Part shown: one piece after another, positions 8,793 to 16,415 of the stretch
Layout of the letters: each line of letters opens with the position of its first letter
How positions within the stretch are numbered: the stretch's first letter is position 1
Assembly: GCA_002839765.1 (NCBI GenBank)
Contig: PGYR01000031.1
Coordinates: forward strand, 1-33,071
DNA length: 33,071 bases
Origin: Ignavibacteriae bacterium HGW-Ignavibacteriae-4
GTDB lineage: Bacteria; Bacteroidota; Ignavibacteria; Kapaibacteriales; UBA2268
Direction of reading: 5' to 3'
Program-made: the position numbers and the translations under genes
Notes under the pieces: generated by a model
What the model saw: the letters and a program-made list of their open reading frames with translations, nothing else
The model's database searches: none
What the model was told of the DNA's origin: nothing

Positions 8793-9068
8793 CTAAAGGA
8801 AATTTTGTTTAGAATGAATTATATTCAATATAGATATATCTTCTTCTATTAAATAAACTACTCTATACGGTTTGATAATTATTTCTCTAATTTTTTCATT
8901 ATTTAGCTCAGGAACTATTCTACCAGAATTGGAGAATGATTCCAATTCTTTAATTCTGATTAAAATTCTATCTATAAATCGATCTGCATACGTGATTGAA
9001 TCTTGAGAAATATAGGCATGTATGCTTACTAATTTTTCTTGTGCAAGTTTAGTGAACTTTATTTGCAT
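8793..9068 (-). CDS. ParE/RelE-family toxin of a toxin-antitoxin pair
   Basis: The protein has 91 aa. Seen: KFTKLAQEKLVSIHAYIS at the N terminus, a middle helix ending in SGRIVPEL, then IREIIIKPYRVVYLIEED and a C-terminal VIHSK-like end (ILNIIHSKQNF). This order matches ParE/RelE superfamily toxins (GRxVPE, RE, YRxxY, H near the end). Family members either inhibit gyrase (ParE) or cleave mRNA (RelE); the sequence alone does not decide between the two, though the GR(I/V)VPE-REI spacing is more like ParE. Its ATG lies inside the end of the antitoxin gene (20-base overlap), so the two are translationally coupled. Confidence 0.9.
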   Translation of the reverse strand: MQIKFTKLAQEKLVSIHAYISQDSITYADRFIDRILIRIKELESFSNSGRIVPELNNEKIREIIIKPYRVVYLIEEDISILNIIHSKQNFL

Positions 9069-9234
9069 TGAAGTTCTCTTTTACTTCTTCAAAACTAATA
9101 ACTTCATTCTTTTCAACTTGTGAAATCCCTTCTTCAATCGATTGGATAACATATATCTGATACATTACATCATCCCAATTTGAATTATCATCTATATTTT
9201 CAATAATTTTATTTAGTTGTTCTTTTATTTTCAT
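9049..9234 (-). CDS. Antitoxin partner of the ParE/RelE toxin
   Basis: The protein has 61 aa. Acidic and helical, it contains DDVMYQIYVIQSIEEGISQV followed by VISFEEVKE. This resembles short antitoxins whose C terminus reads as IxYxLYVxxxIExGLxxxExGxxxSHEEVK, usually encoded just before RelE/ParE toxins. No clear DNA-binding domain is visible in such a short chain, so autoregulation is uncertain. It precedes the toxin with a 20-base overlap, the classical antitoxin-first order. A small inverted repeat lies 22 bases upstream. Confidence 0.85.
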   Translation of the reverse strand: MKIKEQLNKIIENIDDNSNWDDVMYQIYVIQSIEEGISQVEKNEVISFEEVKENFNANKVH

Positions 9235-9346: not shown

Positions 9347-9376
9347 CTATCACTGTTCTTACGTTTCCTAAGTGGT
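9347..9376 (-). pseudogene. Displaced Rhs core fragment (HLGNVRTVI), 30-bp perfect copy
   Basis: These 30 bases are identical to 11399-11428 in the Rhs-type gene, where they encode DHLGNVRTVI. Read leftward the frame gives HLGNVRTVIDKDSRLFKMGG and then a stop at 9312-9314, so the fragment is a broken relic. The core is interrupted on its 5' side by the DUF559 unit whose end begins about 5 bases away. Short displaced core pieces downstream of an Rhs tip are a known mark of tip replacement. Confidence 0.75.
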
Positions 9377-9380
9377 GAAA

Positions 9381-9432
9381 ATTCCCCTTTTTTTAAAAAG
9401 GGGTGGCTCCCGCTATAAGCGGGAGACGGGGT
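9381..9432 (+). repeat. Left terminal inverted repeat with two hairpins
   Basis: It holds CCCCTTTTT-TT-AAAAAGGGG (9384-9403) and a perfect 8-bp stem CTCCCGCT-ATA-AGCGGGAG (9407-9425). The outer ATTCCCC and the blocks GGGGTGG and ACGGGGT recur at the right end. Confidence 0.65.
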
Positions 9433-9434
9433 AT

Positions 9435-9830
9435 TTACATATCCACAAACTCTGTTATTATCCGATTTTTCAAATCTAATATTACACTATCCAAATCAAA
9501 CTTTACTTCCAAATCAGTATATCTTATAACTGTAAGCCCATAACTTCTTAGATAGTTGTCTCTTGCTAAATCATCATCCAATTTTTCGTTGTGGCTAATG
9601 CCATCTATCTCAATTACAATTCCAAGTTTTTTAATATAAAAATCAACTATGTAATTTCCAATTATTTTTTGTCTATCGAAATCCAAATCGAATATTTTCT
9701 TTTGTTTTACTTGATTCCAAAATAACACTTCGGAGAGTATTCCTTGTTTGCGTAGCTCTTTTGCCCTTTGTTTTAGTTGAGGATTTGTTGGTAGATTTAG
9801 TATTCTTGGTTTGAATTTATAGTTGCTCAT
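9435..9830 (-). CDS. DUF559 / Vsr-like endonuclease domain protein
   Basis: The start chosen is ATG 9830 (131 aa, MSNYKFKPRILNLP), because the longer frame begins in the repeat end. Seen: KELRKQGILSEVLFWNQVK, FDRQKIIGNYIVDFYIKK, LGIVIEIDG, and RDNYLRSYGLTVIRY with a following acidic helix. This is the DUF559 fold, a PD-(D/E)xK nuclease relative of the Vsr mismatch endonuclease; the Asp of IVDFY and the Glu/Asp of IEIDG are the expected metal ligands. The gene is alone between inverted repeats and its stop lies 2 bases from the left repeat. It is probably the cargo or the driver of the small unit. Activity and target are unknown. Confidence 0.88.
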   Translation of the reverse strand: MSNYKFKPRILNLPTNPQLKQRAKELRKQGILSEVLFWNQVKQKKIFDLDFDRQKIIGNYIVDFYIKKLGIVIEIDGISHNEKLDDDLARDNYLRSYGLTVIRYTDLEVKFDLDSVILDLKNRIITEFVDM

Positions 9831-9856
9831 ATTGTTTTGGAATTTATTAATTAAAC

Positions 9857-9911
9857 ACCCCGTCCTGCTGGCGCAGTCCACCCCTCTTTCGCTACGCTTA
9901 AAGAGGGGAAT
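9857..9911 (-). repeat. Right terminal inverted repeat
   Basis: It holds ACCCCGT (9857-9863), CCACCCC and a 9-bp stem CCCCTCTTT (9881-9889) with AAAGAGGGG (9900-9908) around a 10-base loop, then ends GGGGAAT. It is the inverted counterpart of 9381-9432. Confidence 0.65.
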
Positions 9912-9987
9912 AACTCCTTCTCCATCCCATTGAAGCCATAGCGGTAATCCTCAGCGGCGTTGTAGATGGCGTTGGTGCCGTAGCTTT
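9912..9987 (-). pseudogene. Displaced GC-rich Rhs core fragment (YGFNGMEKE)
   Basis: Read leftward the bases give KSYGTNAIYNAAEDYRYGFN then GMEKE, the same residues as in the intact Rhs core at 11221-11292, but with many synonymous changes toward G/C (25 of the 40 bases 9941-9980 are G or C, against the AT-rich surroundings). It starts exactly at the stop of the lipoprotein gene and runs into the mobile unit, where the frame ends after about 15 foreign residues. This is what a core displaced by tip exchange should look like. Confidence 0.75.
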
Positions 9988-10347
9988 TTACCATTCTAAC
10001 ATCACTTTTGCATGAATAACTTTATTCGAATCAAAACATAAATTCTCATTACTAAATACTAAAGAATTTAAAGAGAATATATTTAAAGATATACATGACT
10101 TCTTTTTTAAATTAATTCTTATTTCTCCGTTTTTATTTGGATAAACTACATATTTTCCATCTATAAGTACTTCAACGCCTGCACCTAAAGTTGAATCATA
10201 GTATAAAGGAATTAAATGTAATTCTACACCGCCTTTTAGTTCTTTATTGTAAGTTCTAATTATTTGATATTCTCCAATAATATTTTTATTTGTTTTTACG
10301 ACTGAACAACTAACTAAAAATATTATGAAAAAAAAATAAATTTTCAT
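9988..10347 (-). CDS. Small lipoprotein, candidate immunity protein
   Basis: The protein has 119 aa. The N terminus MKIYFFFIIFLVSCSV is a short lipoprotein signal with lipobox LVSC. The mature part is beta-rich (GEYQIIRTY, VELHLIPLYYD, VEVLIDGKYVVYP, GEIRINLKKK) with two further cysteines; no family is recognised. Its ATG overlaps the stop of the metzincin-tip gene as ATGA, and a displaced Rhs core begins right at its own stop. A lone small gene placed between an Rhs tip and a displaced core is the standard position of the immunity gene, and a lipoprotein anchor would fit protection against a periplasmic protease. The immunity role is inference from position only. Confidence 0.65.
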   Translation of the reverse strand: MKIYFFFIIFLVSCSVVKTNKNIIGEYQIIRTYNKELKGGVELHLIPLYYDSTLGAGVEVLIDGKYVVYPNKNGEIRINLKKKSCISLNIFSLNSLVFSNENLCFDSNKVIHAKVMLEW

Positions 10348-11918
10348 TTCTCTTGCTCCTTGACTTCACCTTTTTGCATCTTTTCTGGTGCTTTCTGTCC
10401 ACTAGGGGTAATGACTTTTGGCTTTTGTGTTTCATTGATATTAGAAATTATAGTATTTAATTCTTTAATACCTGCATGGATTAAAATAGCGTTTATAACA
10501 CTTTTTGTAATTACAGGGTTACTTTTTTCTAAATCCGACTGCATAATAGTTCTCCAGATATGATTAAGCCCGAAATTGTGCCCAAGCTCATGTGTTGAAA
10601 CTGTAGAATTACTAGAATAAGATTCTTTTACATAAATGCTTACACCACCACGAGACATTCCTGCATTGTCATCTGGATGTTTTGACTTGTTAAAAATAGG
10701 GTCATCATCTTTGGTGACTTTATAAGAATTACTTGAATTATCATTTACAATCTTTTTTTGATTACCAGTGAATGTGCTTCTGTCATAATTTAATTGAGCA
10801 GTTGGTGGTATTTCATATCCATTAATAATATTTTTATCTATTTCAACATGCTCAATCTCAAACCTAATATTATAGCTTACAATTCCCGTTTGTGTTTCTA
10901 CTTCATAAGTAAATTGACCATTTGTTGACAACCATTTATCTATTCCTAATTGTAAAGAATTTTTAGAGTCCATATCTCCTTTAATCGTATAGTATGTTGC
11001 TTTAATTACAATTGATTCACTTCCCTTTGTATGATCAATATATACAGTATAGTCCTTTCCCGTAGGATCTATGTGTAATATAGGGTTATTTGCAAATGGA
11101 GAATAGGGTGATATACCAGGATAATGCATCTCATGGTCATCTCTTCTAGCAAATATTGGAAACTCACTATCAAAAACCCTCGCCCCAAAATCAGTAATAT
11201 CGCCACTGGCATCCATGTTCTTCTCTTTCTCCATACCATTGAAGCCATAGCGATAATCGTCACTAGCGTTGTAGATGGCGTTAGTGCCATACGACTTACC
11301 GTAAGGGTACATATTGCTTATGTTCTTGATGTCAGCGAAGTATTTCCAGAAGTTCATAGAACCTGATGTCGTAGTTGGGTCTGGGTTTTTATAGTCAGCT
11401 ATCACTGTTCTTACGTTTCCTAAGTGGTCCTTAATCTCATATCTACGGAAATCAGGGGTTCTTTGTTGCGTTTGTCGGTGTCCCGTTACTCCGCTTATTC
11501 CTCTTTCTCTCATTGCTATTGGTACTTTTAGTGTATCAATAGGGCTACCAACCATATTCACAGGCAAAAGGAATTCTGAGCCTGTCATTCTCTTTCCACT
11601 TCCTTCTATCACTTCTTTGGGGTCAACAGTTGCTATCCTTCCGTCCGCTTCCGAACCATATACATACCAATCGTCGAGCCATATTTCAGTATAATTCACT
11701 TGACATGAGTAAATTCCAGTTGCGTCATTTATTGGAGGGTCGGTATCATATAGAGCTAATGTTTTTCCTCCTGCTTCTCTTCCGTAATATGTTGCTTTTA
11801 GTCCTAGAGCTTTTATGCATTCCACACAATTATCATATAGAGTTAGCATATACTCATCACCATTGCATCGCGAACTTATAGGATACTCCATAGCGGATTC
11901 TGGTTCAGTTATAGTCAT
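10344..11918 (-). CDS. Truncated Rhs-type core with C-terminal metzincin-like protease tip
   Basis: The protein has 524 aa. Residues 1 to about 288 are the last part of an Rhs/YD-repeat core: WYVYGSEADGRIATVDP, DHLGNVRTVI (164-173), YRYGFNGMEKE (about 222-232), DFGARVFDSEFPIFARRD and SPYSPFANNPILHIDPTG. The remaining 240 residues are unlike the core, AT-rich in codon use, and carry HELGHNFGLNH (443-453) followed by a Met-turn-like IMQS (458-461), a zinc metalloprotease signature of the metzincin type. The bulk of the usual YD repeats and any signal peptide are missing, so this is an orphan 3' cassette or a broken gene. Its ATG overlaps the stop of the upstream T9SS gene as TAATG. The downstream lipoprotein overlaps as ATGA. 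A protease toxin tip is the likely reading; function is not proven. Confidence 0.8.
   Translation of the reverse strand: MTITEPESAMEYPISSRCNGDEYMLTLYDNCVECIKALGLKATYYGREAGGKTLALYDTDPPINDATGIYSCQVNYTEIWLDDWYVYGSEADGRIATVDPKEVIEGSGKRMTGSEFLLPVNMVGSPIDTLKVPIAMRERGISGVTGHRQTQQRTPDFRRYEIKDHLGNVRTVIADYKNPDPTTTSGSMNFWKYFADIKNISNMYPYGKSYGTNAIYNASDDYRYGFNGMEKEKNMDASGDITDFGARVFDSEFPIFARRDDHEMHYPGISPYSPFANNPILHIDPTGKDYTVYIDHTKGSESIVIKATYYTIKGDMDSKNSLQLGIDKWLSTNGQFTYEVETQTGIVSYNIRFEIEHVEIDKNIINGYEIPPTAQLNYDRSTFTGNQKKIVNDNSSNSYKVTKDDDPIFNKSKHPDDNAGMSRGGVSIYVKESYSSNSTVSTHELGHNFGLNHIWRTIMQSDLEKSNPVITKSVINAILIHAGIKELNTIISNINETQKPKVITPSGQKAPEKMQKGEVKEQEK
11399..11428. repeat. 30-bp perfect direct repeat with 9347-9376
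   Basis: The two copies are identical over CTATCACTGTTCTTACGTTT plus the ten bases CCTAAGTGGT, same orientation, about 2.05 kb apart. Homology stops sharply on both sides. This copy is inside the Rhs core; the other is a relic. Confidence 0.9.
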
Positions 11919-14900
11919 TACTTCACCTTATTGAACTTAAATGTTTCAGACCAGATATCTGATTTTAGATGCATAATATAAGAGCCGCTCGGTAAGTTAC
12001 CGATTTCTATTCTGGAATTATCGTTTATCTCTAAAATGTTATTATAAACTTCAGCTCCTGTTTCGTTGATTATAGTGATTTTGAATTCTCTTGTGCTGTT
12101 ATCAATTAAATCAATAGTTAAATAGTCAGAAGCTGGGTTAGGGTAAATATCCACTCCTTCATAAAAATCAAACACTATTAGTCTTTTGTCATTCAAACAT
12201 ACTTGACCGATTTCAATACTTCCGTTATTTGTATCTATTATAACATAAGGATTATCAGTAGATATGCTATTGAAATATGTATTCTGTTTGAAAGGGGCAC
12301 CAAGCATTGTTTTACCAACAACAAATGTATCCAATTTATTTGAAATACTAACTATATTATCGAATAAAACAGGTTCTTGAATATAGAAAATATTATAAGG
12401 CAGATTCAAATCAAACATTAGTCTTAAGTTAAGCGGTATATCCGAAGAAAAAGAAATGGGATACTCATAATCCTCGTTGAGATATGTAAAATACTTATCT
12501 GTCAAATTTGCTTTCATGATAGTATAAACATTATAGTGATAATCAATTATTGTATCATTGGAACAATCACCAATTGTTTTTCCGTTATGTCTAATAAATA
12601 CAGATAGAGTATTAGGTCCAAGTTCGTTTGCTTTCAACTTAGATTTATATTGAACAGATTCATTGTTATTAACTCTTACATTTTCAAATGAACTATTAAA
12701 TGATATACTGTAATCTTCATCATTTAAACCTTTATTATTAATAGTGAAATAGAATTCTGTTTCATCTCCAATTAATAAACTATCTTTTTGAATTCCAACT
12801 TCATTTACCGTAAATGATTCACTTGACATATTTACCACAAAACTCTTTGTATTAGTGCATCCATTTGTATCGACAACAATTAAAGTATAAATACCTGGTA
12901 AAACTACTTGAATAGAATTATTAGTAGAGCCAGTTGACCATAAGTACTCATCGAATACTTTGTCGCAAAGCAGAACTGCTGTATCACCATAGCAGATAAT
13001 ATTCTCTCCAATTATATCGAATTCTGGAGTTCTATTTAAAGTTACTTTAACAGTATCTGAAACTATGCATCCAAGTTTGCCATCTACAGTAGCATAATAT
13101 ACACCTGACATATTTACTAGAATACTATCAGTAGTCTCACCATTACTCCATTTTATATCGCCGTAATCATAGTTAGCATATAACACTGTCGATTCCCCCT
13201 CACAAAAGTTCAGTTTACCTATGATATTTAACTTTGGTGCTGGCTTAGTATTTAGGGTAAAGCTCGCAGTATCTGAACAATCACTACCCTTAACACTTAC
13301 TATAAGTTGGTAAGTACCAGCATTATTAACCACAATCGAAGGTGAGTTTTTACCATTAGACCAAATGTATGAATAGTTCGATAGATTATTAAGTCCTACT
13401 ACTGAGAGAATTGTTTGTTCACTTTCGCAAATCAAATTTCCTTTACTACTAGCAATATCAAAACTCGGTAGGTCTATAATCTCTACATAAACTGTATCAC
13501 GAACATAACAGAAGTTCTTATCATTGGCTTGTAGTATATATCTACCCGATTTAGTAACTATAATCGAGTCTTTTCGAGAACCAGTTGACCATTGCTGTGA
13601 AGTGATGAGTGGTGATTTTTCTCTCAGCTTTAGTATTACTTCACCAGGTGCACATATTGTATCACTTGGGAAAGATACAATATCTAAATCAAAACTTTGC
13701 ACGCGAGTTACTTCAATAGTATCATAGAATTCACAACCAGATTTTGTGCTAATTTTCAGATTATAAATCCCCGTTTTAGTCACAAATAGCGAATCAGAAT
13801 TCGAACCAGTTGACCATTCAAAATCGAATATTTCTGCATCTGCATTTGTTATCAATATATTAGTTGAATTATCACAATCGAAGTTCTCATATATTTTTAA
13901 TTCGAAATCTGATATATCTTCGATGTTGAAATCAATAGATTTCACACATTTAGTAACTGTATCTATCCCAAAAGCGGTATGAGCACCAGCCGTTGATATA
14001 GTTGCTATTAATCCAATCTCACCGTTACTCCAATAATATTTGTACCTAGGATGGGGATTTCTTATTTTAACTTCAATGTCTTCCCCTTCACATAAAGAAT
14101 GGCCTTCTGGAAAGTCTAGTTTCATACTATGGTAGCTATAACCTTTAACTAAAATTGAATCACTGAATTCACAATTTCCAGATTTTGATTCTACTCTCAA
14201 AGTGTAGTACTTGTCCTGTTCTGCGCTTATCGTATCATTACTACTTCTATTAGACCAATAGAAATTGAATGAAATTGTATCAGCATTCGAAGTGAGCTGT
14301 ATATCATTAATATCACAATTATAGATTGGTATAATTTCTAATTCAAAATCTTCAGCGGAGTATATCCTAAATTCTTTCTTGAATATACAGCCAGTTATTG
14401 TATCTTCAGCTGTTACCCAATATTTACCGGATTTACTAAATGCGGTTTTTAGTGTTTTATATCCATTACTCCATAAATAATTACAATGTGGATGTGGATT
14501 AGTAATTTCGACTTCAATAACCTCATCTTCACAAATAAATGAGCCTAGTGGAAAATTCAAATTAGGAGTTCGGTTAATACTTTCTATTGTTATGCTTTTT
14601 TCTGTAAAGCAATCATCAGATATAGAAACTTTCAGAGTGTAAGTTCCCATTTTGGTAACAATAATTGATCGAGTAGTATCTCCAGTTGACCATAAATAAT
14701 TATTAAAAACTCCACTACATTCTAGTTTGAATGAATCTTTACAATCGAGAATTTCTTTTTCTATCACAAAAGCAGGTGGAGGGACAAAAAATATACTAAC
14801 TGAATCACGAACAGTACATCCATATTGATTAGTAGCTGTCAGAAAGTATTTACCAGACTTAGTTACTTTAATTGAACTGTCTTGGCTACCCGTTGACCAT

Positions 14901-16372
14901 AAATATTCATCAAAATGAGCGGTAACATTAATACTCACAGTATCAATATTACATACTACATTGCCTGGATCAATTTCAAATTTAATTTTTGTAGGGTTTC
15001 CTACACTTAATCTTATAGCCATTGCTATTTTATTTGTAATTCTGTCTTTTAGATAATACATCCCTGAATTTGAAGTAGTAACATTTGGAATTGACAATGC
15101 TCTATTATTAAACTCCTGGAACATCCCCATCCATTTATATCTATTATAGTCTAATTCAAGTTCTGGGTTAAAATAAAATTGTCCTCCAATACAAAATCGA
15201 AATTCCTTTATTTCAAATTCATCTTCATATCTGCCAGGCCCAGTATCGGGAAGACCTAGTAGCGATTTATCATTATTAGTAGTTATTCCAGGGCCTAATT
15301 CTTTATATCTACACTCAGACCCCCATACATTTGGAGCATCAATAACAGAGAGATAAGATTTATTTTCACGGGCAATATAGATTCTATCGTTAATCGCTCT
15401 TTTCATAGCCCACATTCCTCCATCACCACGCTTGTGTTTAAACTCAACTACTTTATTATATAGTAGCTTACCGTTATATACAAAGGCATTCACATCCATT
15501 TGAAAGCATCTAGAAGTGAAAGTGTCATTAGTATTAGAATCTAACTCGTAAGTCGTAATATATAAATTCATTGAATTTTGAGAAAATTCTAATCCATATA
15601 CTCCAGTTTCAAATAATGGAGTTGTAAGTAGCTTTGATTTAGTAATTCTTCCATTTTGATTGTCAAATTCTACAAATTCTATTTCATTTCCATCATAATT
15701 TGCTGAAACAAGTATATTCTGATTAGGAGTTACTTTTAAGTAGCCCTTATTGAAGTTACGTATCATCTTACTCTTAAATCTATCTTTATAGTACAATTTT
15801 CCGTCTTGATAAAGATATACAAGATACGTAGTACTATCGGGTATATGGGGATTGAGAATTATCCAAAGATCTTTCTTGTTGTAATGTCTTACAACCTCAA
15901 CTCTTTCAAAACTTTTCTCAGAACTATCTAAATGAGTTTTTACTTTTGAAAGTTCACCATCCAAATTATTCGAGAAATCTAGTTTATATAAATATGAACC
16001 ATCTTGAAAAGCAGAAGTATGTGCAGTTATCAATAAAAATAATTTGTCATTACTTGGATCTTGGTAAATTGAAATCCCCTGAGTGGCATCTTGAGATCCT
16101 AATAGTTCATTAGTGATTAGTTTATGTTTGCTATTCCAAATATTCATACCATCGGAATAGAATAATAATCTCCCATCTTGATCTATACCTGTTGCGGCTG
16201 CTTCCGGCGAGTTAATCAAAAAATCATCTGAAAGAGAATAAGGTGGAGCAATTCTAGAATCAAATTTTAGTGAAGCACCTTTACCAAATATCCATAAATC
16301 CTTTTCTAATTGACTTTGTGCAATCAAAAAGGAACTGACAAAAATAAAAAATATGATTAATTTTCTTTGCAT
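11918..16372 (-). CDS. Large secreted Ig-like-repeat protein with T9SS type A tail
   Basis: The start chosen is ATG 16372 (1484 aa), where MQRKLIIFFIFVSSFLIAQS forms a signal peptide. The N-terminal ~400 residues are propeller-like and of a type often seen on Bacteroidota surface proteins (LWIFGKGASLKFD, AAATGIDQDGRLLFYSDGMN). Then come ten Ig/CHU_C-like repeats, each with a Cys at both ends and a core of the form W-S-T/N-G-x5-I-x-V-T-x-S/T-G-x-Y (YLWSTGSQDSSIKVTKSGKY is the first). A domain without repeats follows, and the last 75 residues are a T9SS tail (DIYPNPASDYLTIDL ... LPSGSYIMHLKSD). It is probably an adhesin or matrix protein on the cell surface. It overlaps the Rhs-type gene by one base. 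Function is inferred from domains. Confidence 0.9.
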   Translation of the reverse strand: MQRKLIIFFIFVSSFLIAQSQLEKDLWIFGKGASLKFDSRIAPPYSLSDDFLINSPEAAATGIDQDGRLLFYSDGMNIWNSKHKLITNELLGSQDATQGISIYQDPSNDKLFLLITAHTSAFQDGSYLYKLDFSNNLDGELSKVKTHLDSSEKSFERVEVVRHYNKKDLWIILNPHIPDSTTYLVYLYQDGKLYYKDRFKSKMIRNFNKGYLKVTPNQNILVSANYDGNEIEFVEFDNQNGRITKSKLLTTPLFETGVYGLEFSQNSMNLYITTYELDSNTNDTFTSRCFQMDVNAFVYNGKLLYNKVVEFKHKRGDGGMWAMKRAINDRIYIARENKSYLSVIDAPNVWGSECRYKELGPGITTNNDKSLLGLPDTGPGRYEDEFEIKEFRFCIGGQFYFNPELELDYNRYKWMGMFQEFNNRALSIPNVTTSNSGMYYLKDRITNKIAMAIRLSVGNPTKIKFEIDPGNVVCNIDTVSINVTAHFDEYLWSTGSQDSSIKVTKSGKYFLTATNQYGCTVRDSVSIFFVPPPAFVIEKEILDCKDSFKLECSGVFNNYLWSTGDTTRSIIVTKMGTYTLKVSISDDCFTEKSITIESINRTPNLNFPLGSFICEDEVIEVEITNPHPHCNYLWSNGYKTLKTAFSKSGKYWVTAEDTITGCIFKKEFRIYSAEDFELEIIPIYNCDINDIQLTSNADTISFNFYWSNRSSNDTISAEQDKYYTLRVESKSGNCEFSDSILVKGYSYHSMKLDFPEGHSLCEGEDIEVKIRNPHPRYKYYWSNGEIGLIATISTAGAHTAFGIDTVTKCVKSIDFNIEDISDFELKIYENFDCDNSTNILITNADAEIFDFEWSTGSNSDSLFVTKTGIYNLKISTKSGCEFYDTIEVTRVQSFDLDIVSFPSDTICAPGEVILKLREKSPLITSQQWSTGSRKDSIIVTKSGRYILQANDKNFCYVRDTVYVEIIDLPSFDIASSKGNLICESEQTILSVVGLNNLSNYSYIWSNGKNSPSIVVNNAGTYQLIVSVKGSDCSDTASFTLNTKPAPKLNIIGKLNFCEGESTVLYANYDYGDIKWSNGETTDSILVNMSGVYYATVDGKLGCIVSDTVKVTLNRTPEFDIIGENIICYGDTAVLLCDKVFDEYLWSTGSTNNSIQVVLPGIYTLIVVDTNGCTNTKSFVVNMSSESFTVNEVGIQKDSLLIGDETEFYFTINNKGLNDEDYSISFNSSFENVRVNNNESVQYKSKLKANELGPNTLSVFIRHNGKTIGDCSNDTIIDYHYNVYTIMKANLTDKYFTYLNEDYEYPISFSSDIPLNLRLMFDLNLPYNIFYIQEPVLFDNIVSISNKLDTFVVGKTMLGAPFKQNTYFNSISTDNPYVIIDTNNGSIEIGQVCLNDKRLIVFDFYEGVDIYPNPASDYLTIDLIDNSTREFKITIINETGAEVYNNILEINDNSRIEIGNLPSGSYIMHLKSDIWSETFKFNKVK

Positions 16373-16415
16373 TTTGATAAAATACTGAAATAATATAGAA
16401 TAATCAAACAATTGT

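Follow-up and report, generated by a model that had tools for sequence, protein, structure and literature searches.

A gene on the minus strand of the window, by which we mean the whole 33,071-nucleotide stretch analyzed here (contig PGYR01000031.1 of Ignavibacteriae bacterium HGW-Ignavibacteriae-4), joins the C-terminal part of an Rhs core to a tip with a metzincin zinc motif, and is followed by an overlapping gene for a lipoprotein. The locus as a whole is probably an Rhs tip-immunity module without a shell, with a metzincin toxin, a lipoprotein that would block it, and core sequences through which it may move. Such a module would be a stored one, kept apart from the remainder of the Rhs protein. 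If joined to an Rhs shell that is delivered, the tip would act as a zinc protease on periplasmic or surface proteins of a competitor, and the overlapping lipoprotein, exported and lipid-anchored, would bind and block the tip at its site of action. As there is core on both sides, 287 codons upstream and short displaced pieces downstream, the module may move between Rhs genes by recombination.

Organization of the locus

The Rhs-tip ORF of 524 residues (10344-11918; this and the other features of the window described here lie on the minus strand) was identified from its reading frame and motifs. DHLGNVRTVI, YGFNGMEKE and NNPILHIDPTG are present ahead of HELGHNFGLNH and IMQS. Residues 1-287 (11058..11918) are the C-terminal part of an Rhs protein, ending in IDPTG and missing the N-terminal shell, and the remaining 237 residues (10344..11057) form the tip with the zinc motif and IMQS. 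The model Rhs_assc_core (TIGR03696) covers residues 204-287. Its score was 30.8 bits when the protein was scanned, under the cut-off of 32.5, whereas the genome search scored this core at 32.5 bits and over the cut-off. The Rhs-associated core stands directly before the tip, as in Rhs polymorphic toxin modules, and the motifs and the TIGR03696 match together confirm the 524-residue fusion of Rhs core and metzincin tip that an earlier note on this DNA had described.

The start of the lipoprotein gene (9988..10347, 119 residues, a candidate immunity protein) overlaps the tip stop as ATGA. The lipoprotein matched no Pfam family at E≤1, CarboxypepD_reg included, in agreement with the earlier description of it as belonging to no recognised family. 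Within a few bases of its stop, VKSYGTNAIYNAAEDYRYGFNGMEKE can be read in another frame and represents displaced core. This fragment (9914..9982) equals the upstream core at 11223-11291 in 60 of 69 nucleotides, so the displaced core that had been placed at the lipoprotein stop is indeed there. The order of core, tip, small gene and displaced core, which had been likened to the layout of polymorphic toxin tips with immunity genes, recurs in G002:C70 of the same genus; in the window it looks like an orphan, without an Rhs shell.

An element at 9377..9913 lies inside the displaced core sequence. It contains a DUF559 gene as an ORF (9435-9881), and its ends, read by eye, are inverted-repeat-like (ATTCCCCTCTTT.../...AAAGGGGAATTTT). 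A second scrap of displaced core (9347..9376, reading HLGNVRTVI) follows, identical to 11399-11428 at 30 of 30 nucleotides. Close copies of the element were found in G002:C70 and G001:C407, and a degenerate copy in contig C17 of the same assembly as the window. In all four cases Rhs core can be read by eye to the left of the element, although C17 gave only a weak match there (E 0.16), and in three of the four also to its right. The element may be a mobile one with rhs core pieces as landing sites. Immediately past the Rhs scraps lies a ParE-family toxin gene with a 61-residue upstream ORF overlapping it (together 8793-9234); the ORF is perhaps its antitoxin. The core part has a G+C fraction of 0.41, the tip 0.31 and the lipoprotein gene 0.23, compared to 0.33 for the window. 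A promoter scan found nine candidates against a mean of 11.6 in shuffles, that is, no excess.

The missing shell and the conserved core

The Rhs part starts abruptly, as the ATG of the ORF overlaps the TAA of an unrelated T9SS-tail gene (11918-16411). Window residues from 5 onward align to residues from 447 onward of a 985-residue Rhs frame in the same genus (G002:C112), which indicates that at least some 440 shell residues are missing here, and both the YD-repeat shell and a delivery domain are absent from the 524-residue ORF. Searches of the window's own genome, an assembly of 110 contigs, gave six matches to the core at E≤10, the frames that contain them being 55 to 527 residues long. RHS_repeat gave four matches at E≤10, one of them over the cut-off; this model performs weakly in the genus, scoring the G002 Rhs frame at 21.2 bits against a cut-off of 22, and proves no absence. 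Because the ORF has no Rhs shell and no core frame in its own genome exceeds 527 residues, the locus looks like a stored orphan tip-immunity cassette, not a complete Rhs toxin. VipB had no match in this genome; delivery is left unexplained, which counts against our main explanation.

The missing shell and the shortness of those six core frames would also suit a decayed remnant, as would the interruption of the core scraps by the DUF559 element. The Rhs fragment would then be a fossil that the cell does not translate or deliver, with the lipoprotein the sole part that might still be in use, as orphan immunity. We consider such decay unlikely, however, since the tip and lipoprotein frames are both intact, the catalytic motif has been kept, and storage as orphan CT-immunity modules is known for both Rhs and CdiA (PMC10539506). 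A stored module, whose genes are presumably still expressed, is the reading that we prefer.

Like those orphan Rhs modules, the locus has a core end, a variable tip, an overlapping downstream gene and displaced cores, and differing tips occur on one core within the genus. A core 67% identical over residues 1-295 is present in G002:C70, also of this genus, where it continues into a different tip. That other tip has a GHSMG motif, and behind it come a gene for an exported product, a piece of displaced core and a gene of the DUF559 family. The locus differs from Rhs CT-immunity modules in that its ORF carries no Rhs shell, and in having a metzincin tip family with exported partners.

Five core-tip modules were surveyed in the window's own genome (contigs C5, C62, C66, C74 and C75). 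The next gene has a lipobox, by a home-made rule, in four of the five, and that of C75 is membrane-like. The C66 module (L218 2337-3320) has a second zincin-like Rhs tip, in which HDMTH replaces HExxH. It is 30% identical, over 266 columns that include the core end, to a HELGH module of G001:C215 from the same genus, and is followed by a 139-residue lipoprotein.

A metzincin tip family

The zinc motif HExxHxxGxxH/D is present in the window tip as HELGHNFGLNH, and HExxHxxGxxH arose in only 4 of 200,000 shuffles of the tip. IMQS follows shortly after the third His and aligns with GLM, GVM and DVM of sister tips, G135 having GVL at this place. Searched alone, the window tip gave sub-threshold Pfam matches to reprolysin, matrixin and similar models (E 0.004-0.08), and matches in the PDB only near E 1. 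An alignment was made of 14 Rhs tips from 12 genomes, in which the H, E and H of the motif are invariant, and its profile matched 187 PDB sequences at E≤1, the best being a serralysin (E 2.1e-5). The best 60 of these 187 matches we take, by their names, to be metzincins. HExxHxxGxx[HD] is found in ten of the 14 aligned tips and the third ligand is missing in the other four. Based on this sequence profile, the tip family is metzincin. Zinc motif, a candidate Met-turn and profile matches are shared with the serralysin, matrixin and astacin metzincins, which differ in being secreted free-standing enzymes and not Rhs tips. A subgroup of tips (L100, L103 and L143) has HEIFH or HEMFH, without the third metzincin metal ligand, and keeps the rest of the family pattern.

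Pfam holds models of the Tox-MPTase families. The comparison with metallopeptidase and Tox-MPTase families that the earlier note had proposed retrieved metzincins, but no toxin-named Pfam model was among the matches of the 14 tips at E≤1 or E≤0.1, with HMMER filters that lose weak matches. An AlphaFold model of the tip, from an alignment of three rows, had a pLDDT of 45 and was too weak to judge the fold. Foldseek returned no match at E≤0.001 for the tip model or the lipoprotein model, and the best VIA-align Z scores, 4.8 for the tip and 7.5 for the lipoprotein, were among tied generic rows.

Relatives of the tip and their partners

Relatives that align over nearly the whole tip sit behind Rhs cores. 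The closest in the same order are from G095, the best other tip match in the order, and G107, in stretches that are Ca. Kapaibacterium contigs (L137 and L138, respectively). The tips of G135 and G153 come from outside the window's class; that of G135 was matched with E 9e-24 in the profile search and is 28% identical to the window tip over 241 columns in a pairwise alignment. The partners of these tips differ. The G095 tip is followed by two lipoproteins that are 39% identical to each other, which is what duplicated immunity genes would look like. In G135 the partner is a 126-residue lipoprotein that overlaps the tip and has a CarboxypepD_reg domain, and in G107 it is a 395-residue protein that, when read from its GTG, has what looks by eye like a signal. 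Applying a crude rule to the 14 aligned-tip modules, we found an export signal in the next gene of 13, the exception being that of G107. The tip of G367:C82 is cut by a contig end and was left out of the counts.

A metzincin without Rhs was also found. G302:C57 (L144 2163-4612) encodes a free-standing T9SS-tail metzincin with a PKD domain and HELGHNFGLKH, which matches the tip only around the zinc motif (E 2.5e-7, positions 61-151 of 207), with 14 of 31 residues identical in the catalytic stretch. Its stop overlaps by four bases a lipoprotein-like gene of 192 residues, for which neither a Pfam family nor any resemblance to the lipoprotein of the window was found. The layout thus exists outside Rhs as well, and a metzincin with a lipoprotein next to it is not necessarily an Rhs toxin. 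The protease might act on eukaryotic or environmental proteins, or process itself, and not be an antibacterial toxin, as the catalytic stretch shared with this secreted enzyme and the best PDB matches of the tip family, secreted serralysins and other extracellular metzincins, could suggest. We regard such a function as very improbable, because the partners that co-segregate with tips (see below) point to immunity, which a protease of this kind would not need. The preferred reading of the tip is that of a toxin, predicted to be proteolytic. Nor is it likely to be a housekeeping protease lacking Rhs context in relatives, as the earlier note had considered, since the non-Rhs proteases examined matched the zinc-motif stretch only.

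Several weak tip matches were inspected and rejected as Rhs tips. They include G302:C57 itself, on account of its T9SS tail and its match around the zinc motif only, G026:C32 (a T9SS-like surface protein), G352:C2 and G475:C149 (zinc peptidases without Rhs) and G093:C88 (taken as a chance match).

Survey of core-tip modules

We surveyed 99 loci in all, of which 78 were further stretches fetched from core matches, chosen by eye if they reached about residue 282, with two of the matches taken from the own-genome search. The loci come from relatives in the phylum, and 84 of the 99 yielded 129 closed core-tip modules, each counted once; modules were excluded if the tip was shorter than 60 or longer than 600 residues, or if it had no stop within the locus. 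Export was called by a home-made rule that combines a hydropathy window with a lipobox pattern, and in both groups compared a start that yielded a signal took precedence.

With related modules not being independent, the next gene carried an export signal in 33 of 37 modules with HExxH tips vs. 57 of 92 others (Fisher p 0.003). The difference grew when partners with further membrane spans were not counted (33/37 vs. 44/92, p 9e-6). The main figures count one HExxH and eleven other modules that have no next gene as not exported; with these set aside, 33 of 36 HExxH and 57 of 81 other modules had exported partners (p 0.016). Among loci fetched for their core alone, the window included, the numbers were 18/20 and 50/83 (p 0.016), and among those fetched for their tip, 15/17 and 7/9. 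The lipobox alone (12/37 vs. 18/92, p 0.17) and the presence of any next gene (36/37 vs. 81/92, p 0.18) did not distinguish the groups. These counts point to an extracytoplasmic site of action for most partners of HExxH tips. That 57 of 92 non-HExxH modules also have exported partners, which are common lineage-wide, counts against our main explanation.

Tips and next genes were also found to co-segregate. Among the 117 modules with a next gene, similar next genes went with similar tips in 20 of 22 pairs (mean in shuffles 0.18, with none of 2000 reaching 20), and among HExxH modules in seven of seven, from which it follows that the gene after a tip in these loci is generally its cognate partner. 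The tip and next gene overlap by four bases in 12 of 36 HExxH modules, including that of the window. Single stretches from G076 and G043 (L177, L211 and L226) were observed to have four to six core-tip-partner modules in series, and represent natural collections of tip-immunity cassettes.

The lipoprotein as candidate immunity protein

The lipoprotein starts with Lys, a hydrophobic run and VSCS, the last being a lipobox by eye and by the crude home-made rule. No convincing relative was found among 123 genomes of the order (best other match E 0.003) or 395 genomes of the phylum (seven matches, E 9e-4 to 8e-3), two sets that overlap. Four of the seven phylum matches were inspected by eye and rejected, three lying in NAD synthetase-like frames and one among acetyltransferase-like genes. 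Since neither set gave a convincing relative, the exact tip-lipoprotein pair is unseen elsewhere, and the search for it behind other Rhs cores, which the earlier note had proposed, gave no second case; the converse, a lipoprotein widespread without the tip, was likewise not encountered.

The lipoprotein also had no significant similarity to the partners of sister tips in BLAST, hhalign or shuffle tests, and among the partner lipoproteins compared only the two of G095 were significantly similar to each other. Its similarity to the G135 lipoprotein was not significant, with 42 of 1000 shuffles scoring as high under BLOSUM45 and 120 of 1000 under BLOSUM62. A CarboxypepD_reg-like fold shared by the partner lipoproteins is considered only as part of the bolder proposal given below; that domain was matched in the G135 partner alone among those scanned (E 7.5e-9). 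A single-sequence model of the mature lipoprotein was all-beta, at low confidence (pLDDT 56).

With neither a convincing relative nor similarity to sister partners, the pairing of this lipoprotein with this tip rests on position. The same two findings would fit a lipoprotein that is a passenger, or an unrelated gene overlapping a true toxin gene by chance. This seems improbable to us given that its four-base overlap is one also present in a third of HExxH modules, that partners co-segregate with tips across the lineage, and that displaced core resumes a few bases past its stop, which places it within the module. Based on position, the enrichment of export among partners and tip-partner co-segregation, we regard the lipoprotein as most likely the cognate immunity factor for a protease with an extracytoplasmic site of action. 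The toxin-immunity pair suggested in the earlier note is therefore upheld in part, by the exported partners of HExxH tips and by co-segregation, but the exact pair did not recur in the genomes searched.

Relation to known systems

The metzincin tip family and its probable lipoprotein protector look new, although the kind of system is already known. A metallopeptidase toxin with exported immunity is an established principle, owing to VgrG2b/PA0261 and Tpe1/Tpi1, so that the pairing is not an unrecognised one. In Wood 2019 (PMC6899460), the periplasmic metallopeptidase toxin VgrG2b is neutralised by the exported PA0261, homologues of PA0261 in Enterobacteriaceae are predicted lipoproteins, and the immunity proteins of VgrG2b/Tpe1 toxins are periplasmic, inner-membrane or lipoprotein. 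Our locus resembles these pairs in having a predicted zinc metallopeptidase toxin with a partner of such a location; VgrG2b and Tpe1, however, are T6SS effectors and not Rhs tips, and are likened to the locus by description, not by sequence.

Zincin domains also end RHS proteins in Tox-MPTase1-5 and the HopH1-like toxins, as they do here. In Zhang 2012 (PMC3482391), Tox-MPTase1-5 are tabulated as RHS metallopeptidase toxins without immunity proteins and described as distantly related to Wss1-like peptidases; the window tip family differs in that it was matched by no toxin-named Pfam model. Imm65, given there as the only lipoprotein immunity of that collection, is like our candidate in being found with RHS toxins in Bacteroidetes, and differs as the partner of a JAB-domain toxin, Tox-JAB-1. 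TANFOR polymorphic toxins of Bacteroidetes likewise have very diverse downstream genes, according to PMC7073777. No metzincin Rhs tip was named in the titles and abstract openings of the literature searched, which leaves absence from print unproven.

A bolder and rather doubtful proposal is that Rhs proteins of Kapaibacteria and other Bacteroidota carry undescribed extracytoplasmic metzincin toxins with fast-diverging, systematically exported immunity partners, and that the window and G135 partners are small beta-sandwich lipoproteins that plug the active site. If this is true, such lipoproteins would be to bacteria what protein inhibitors of metzincins are to animals. The analysis supplies about a dozen pairs of toxin and partner for studying envelope-anchored immunity against metzincins, and tip-partner co-segregation offers a simple way to find such pairs. 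Overall, the Rhs repertoire of a little-studied lineage gains a protease family, presumably one that is extracytoplasmic in action.
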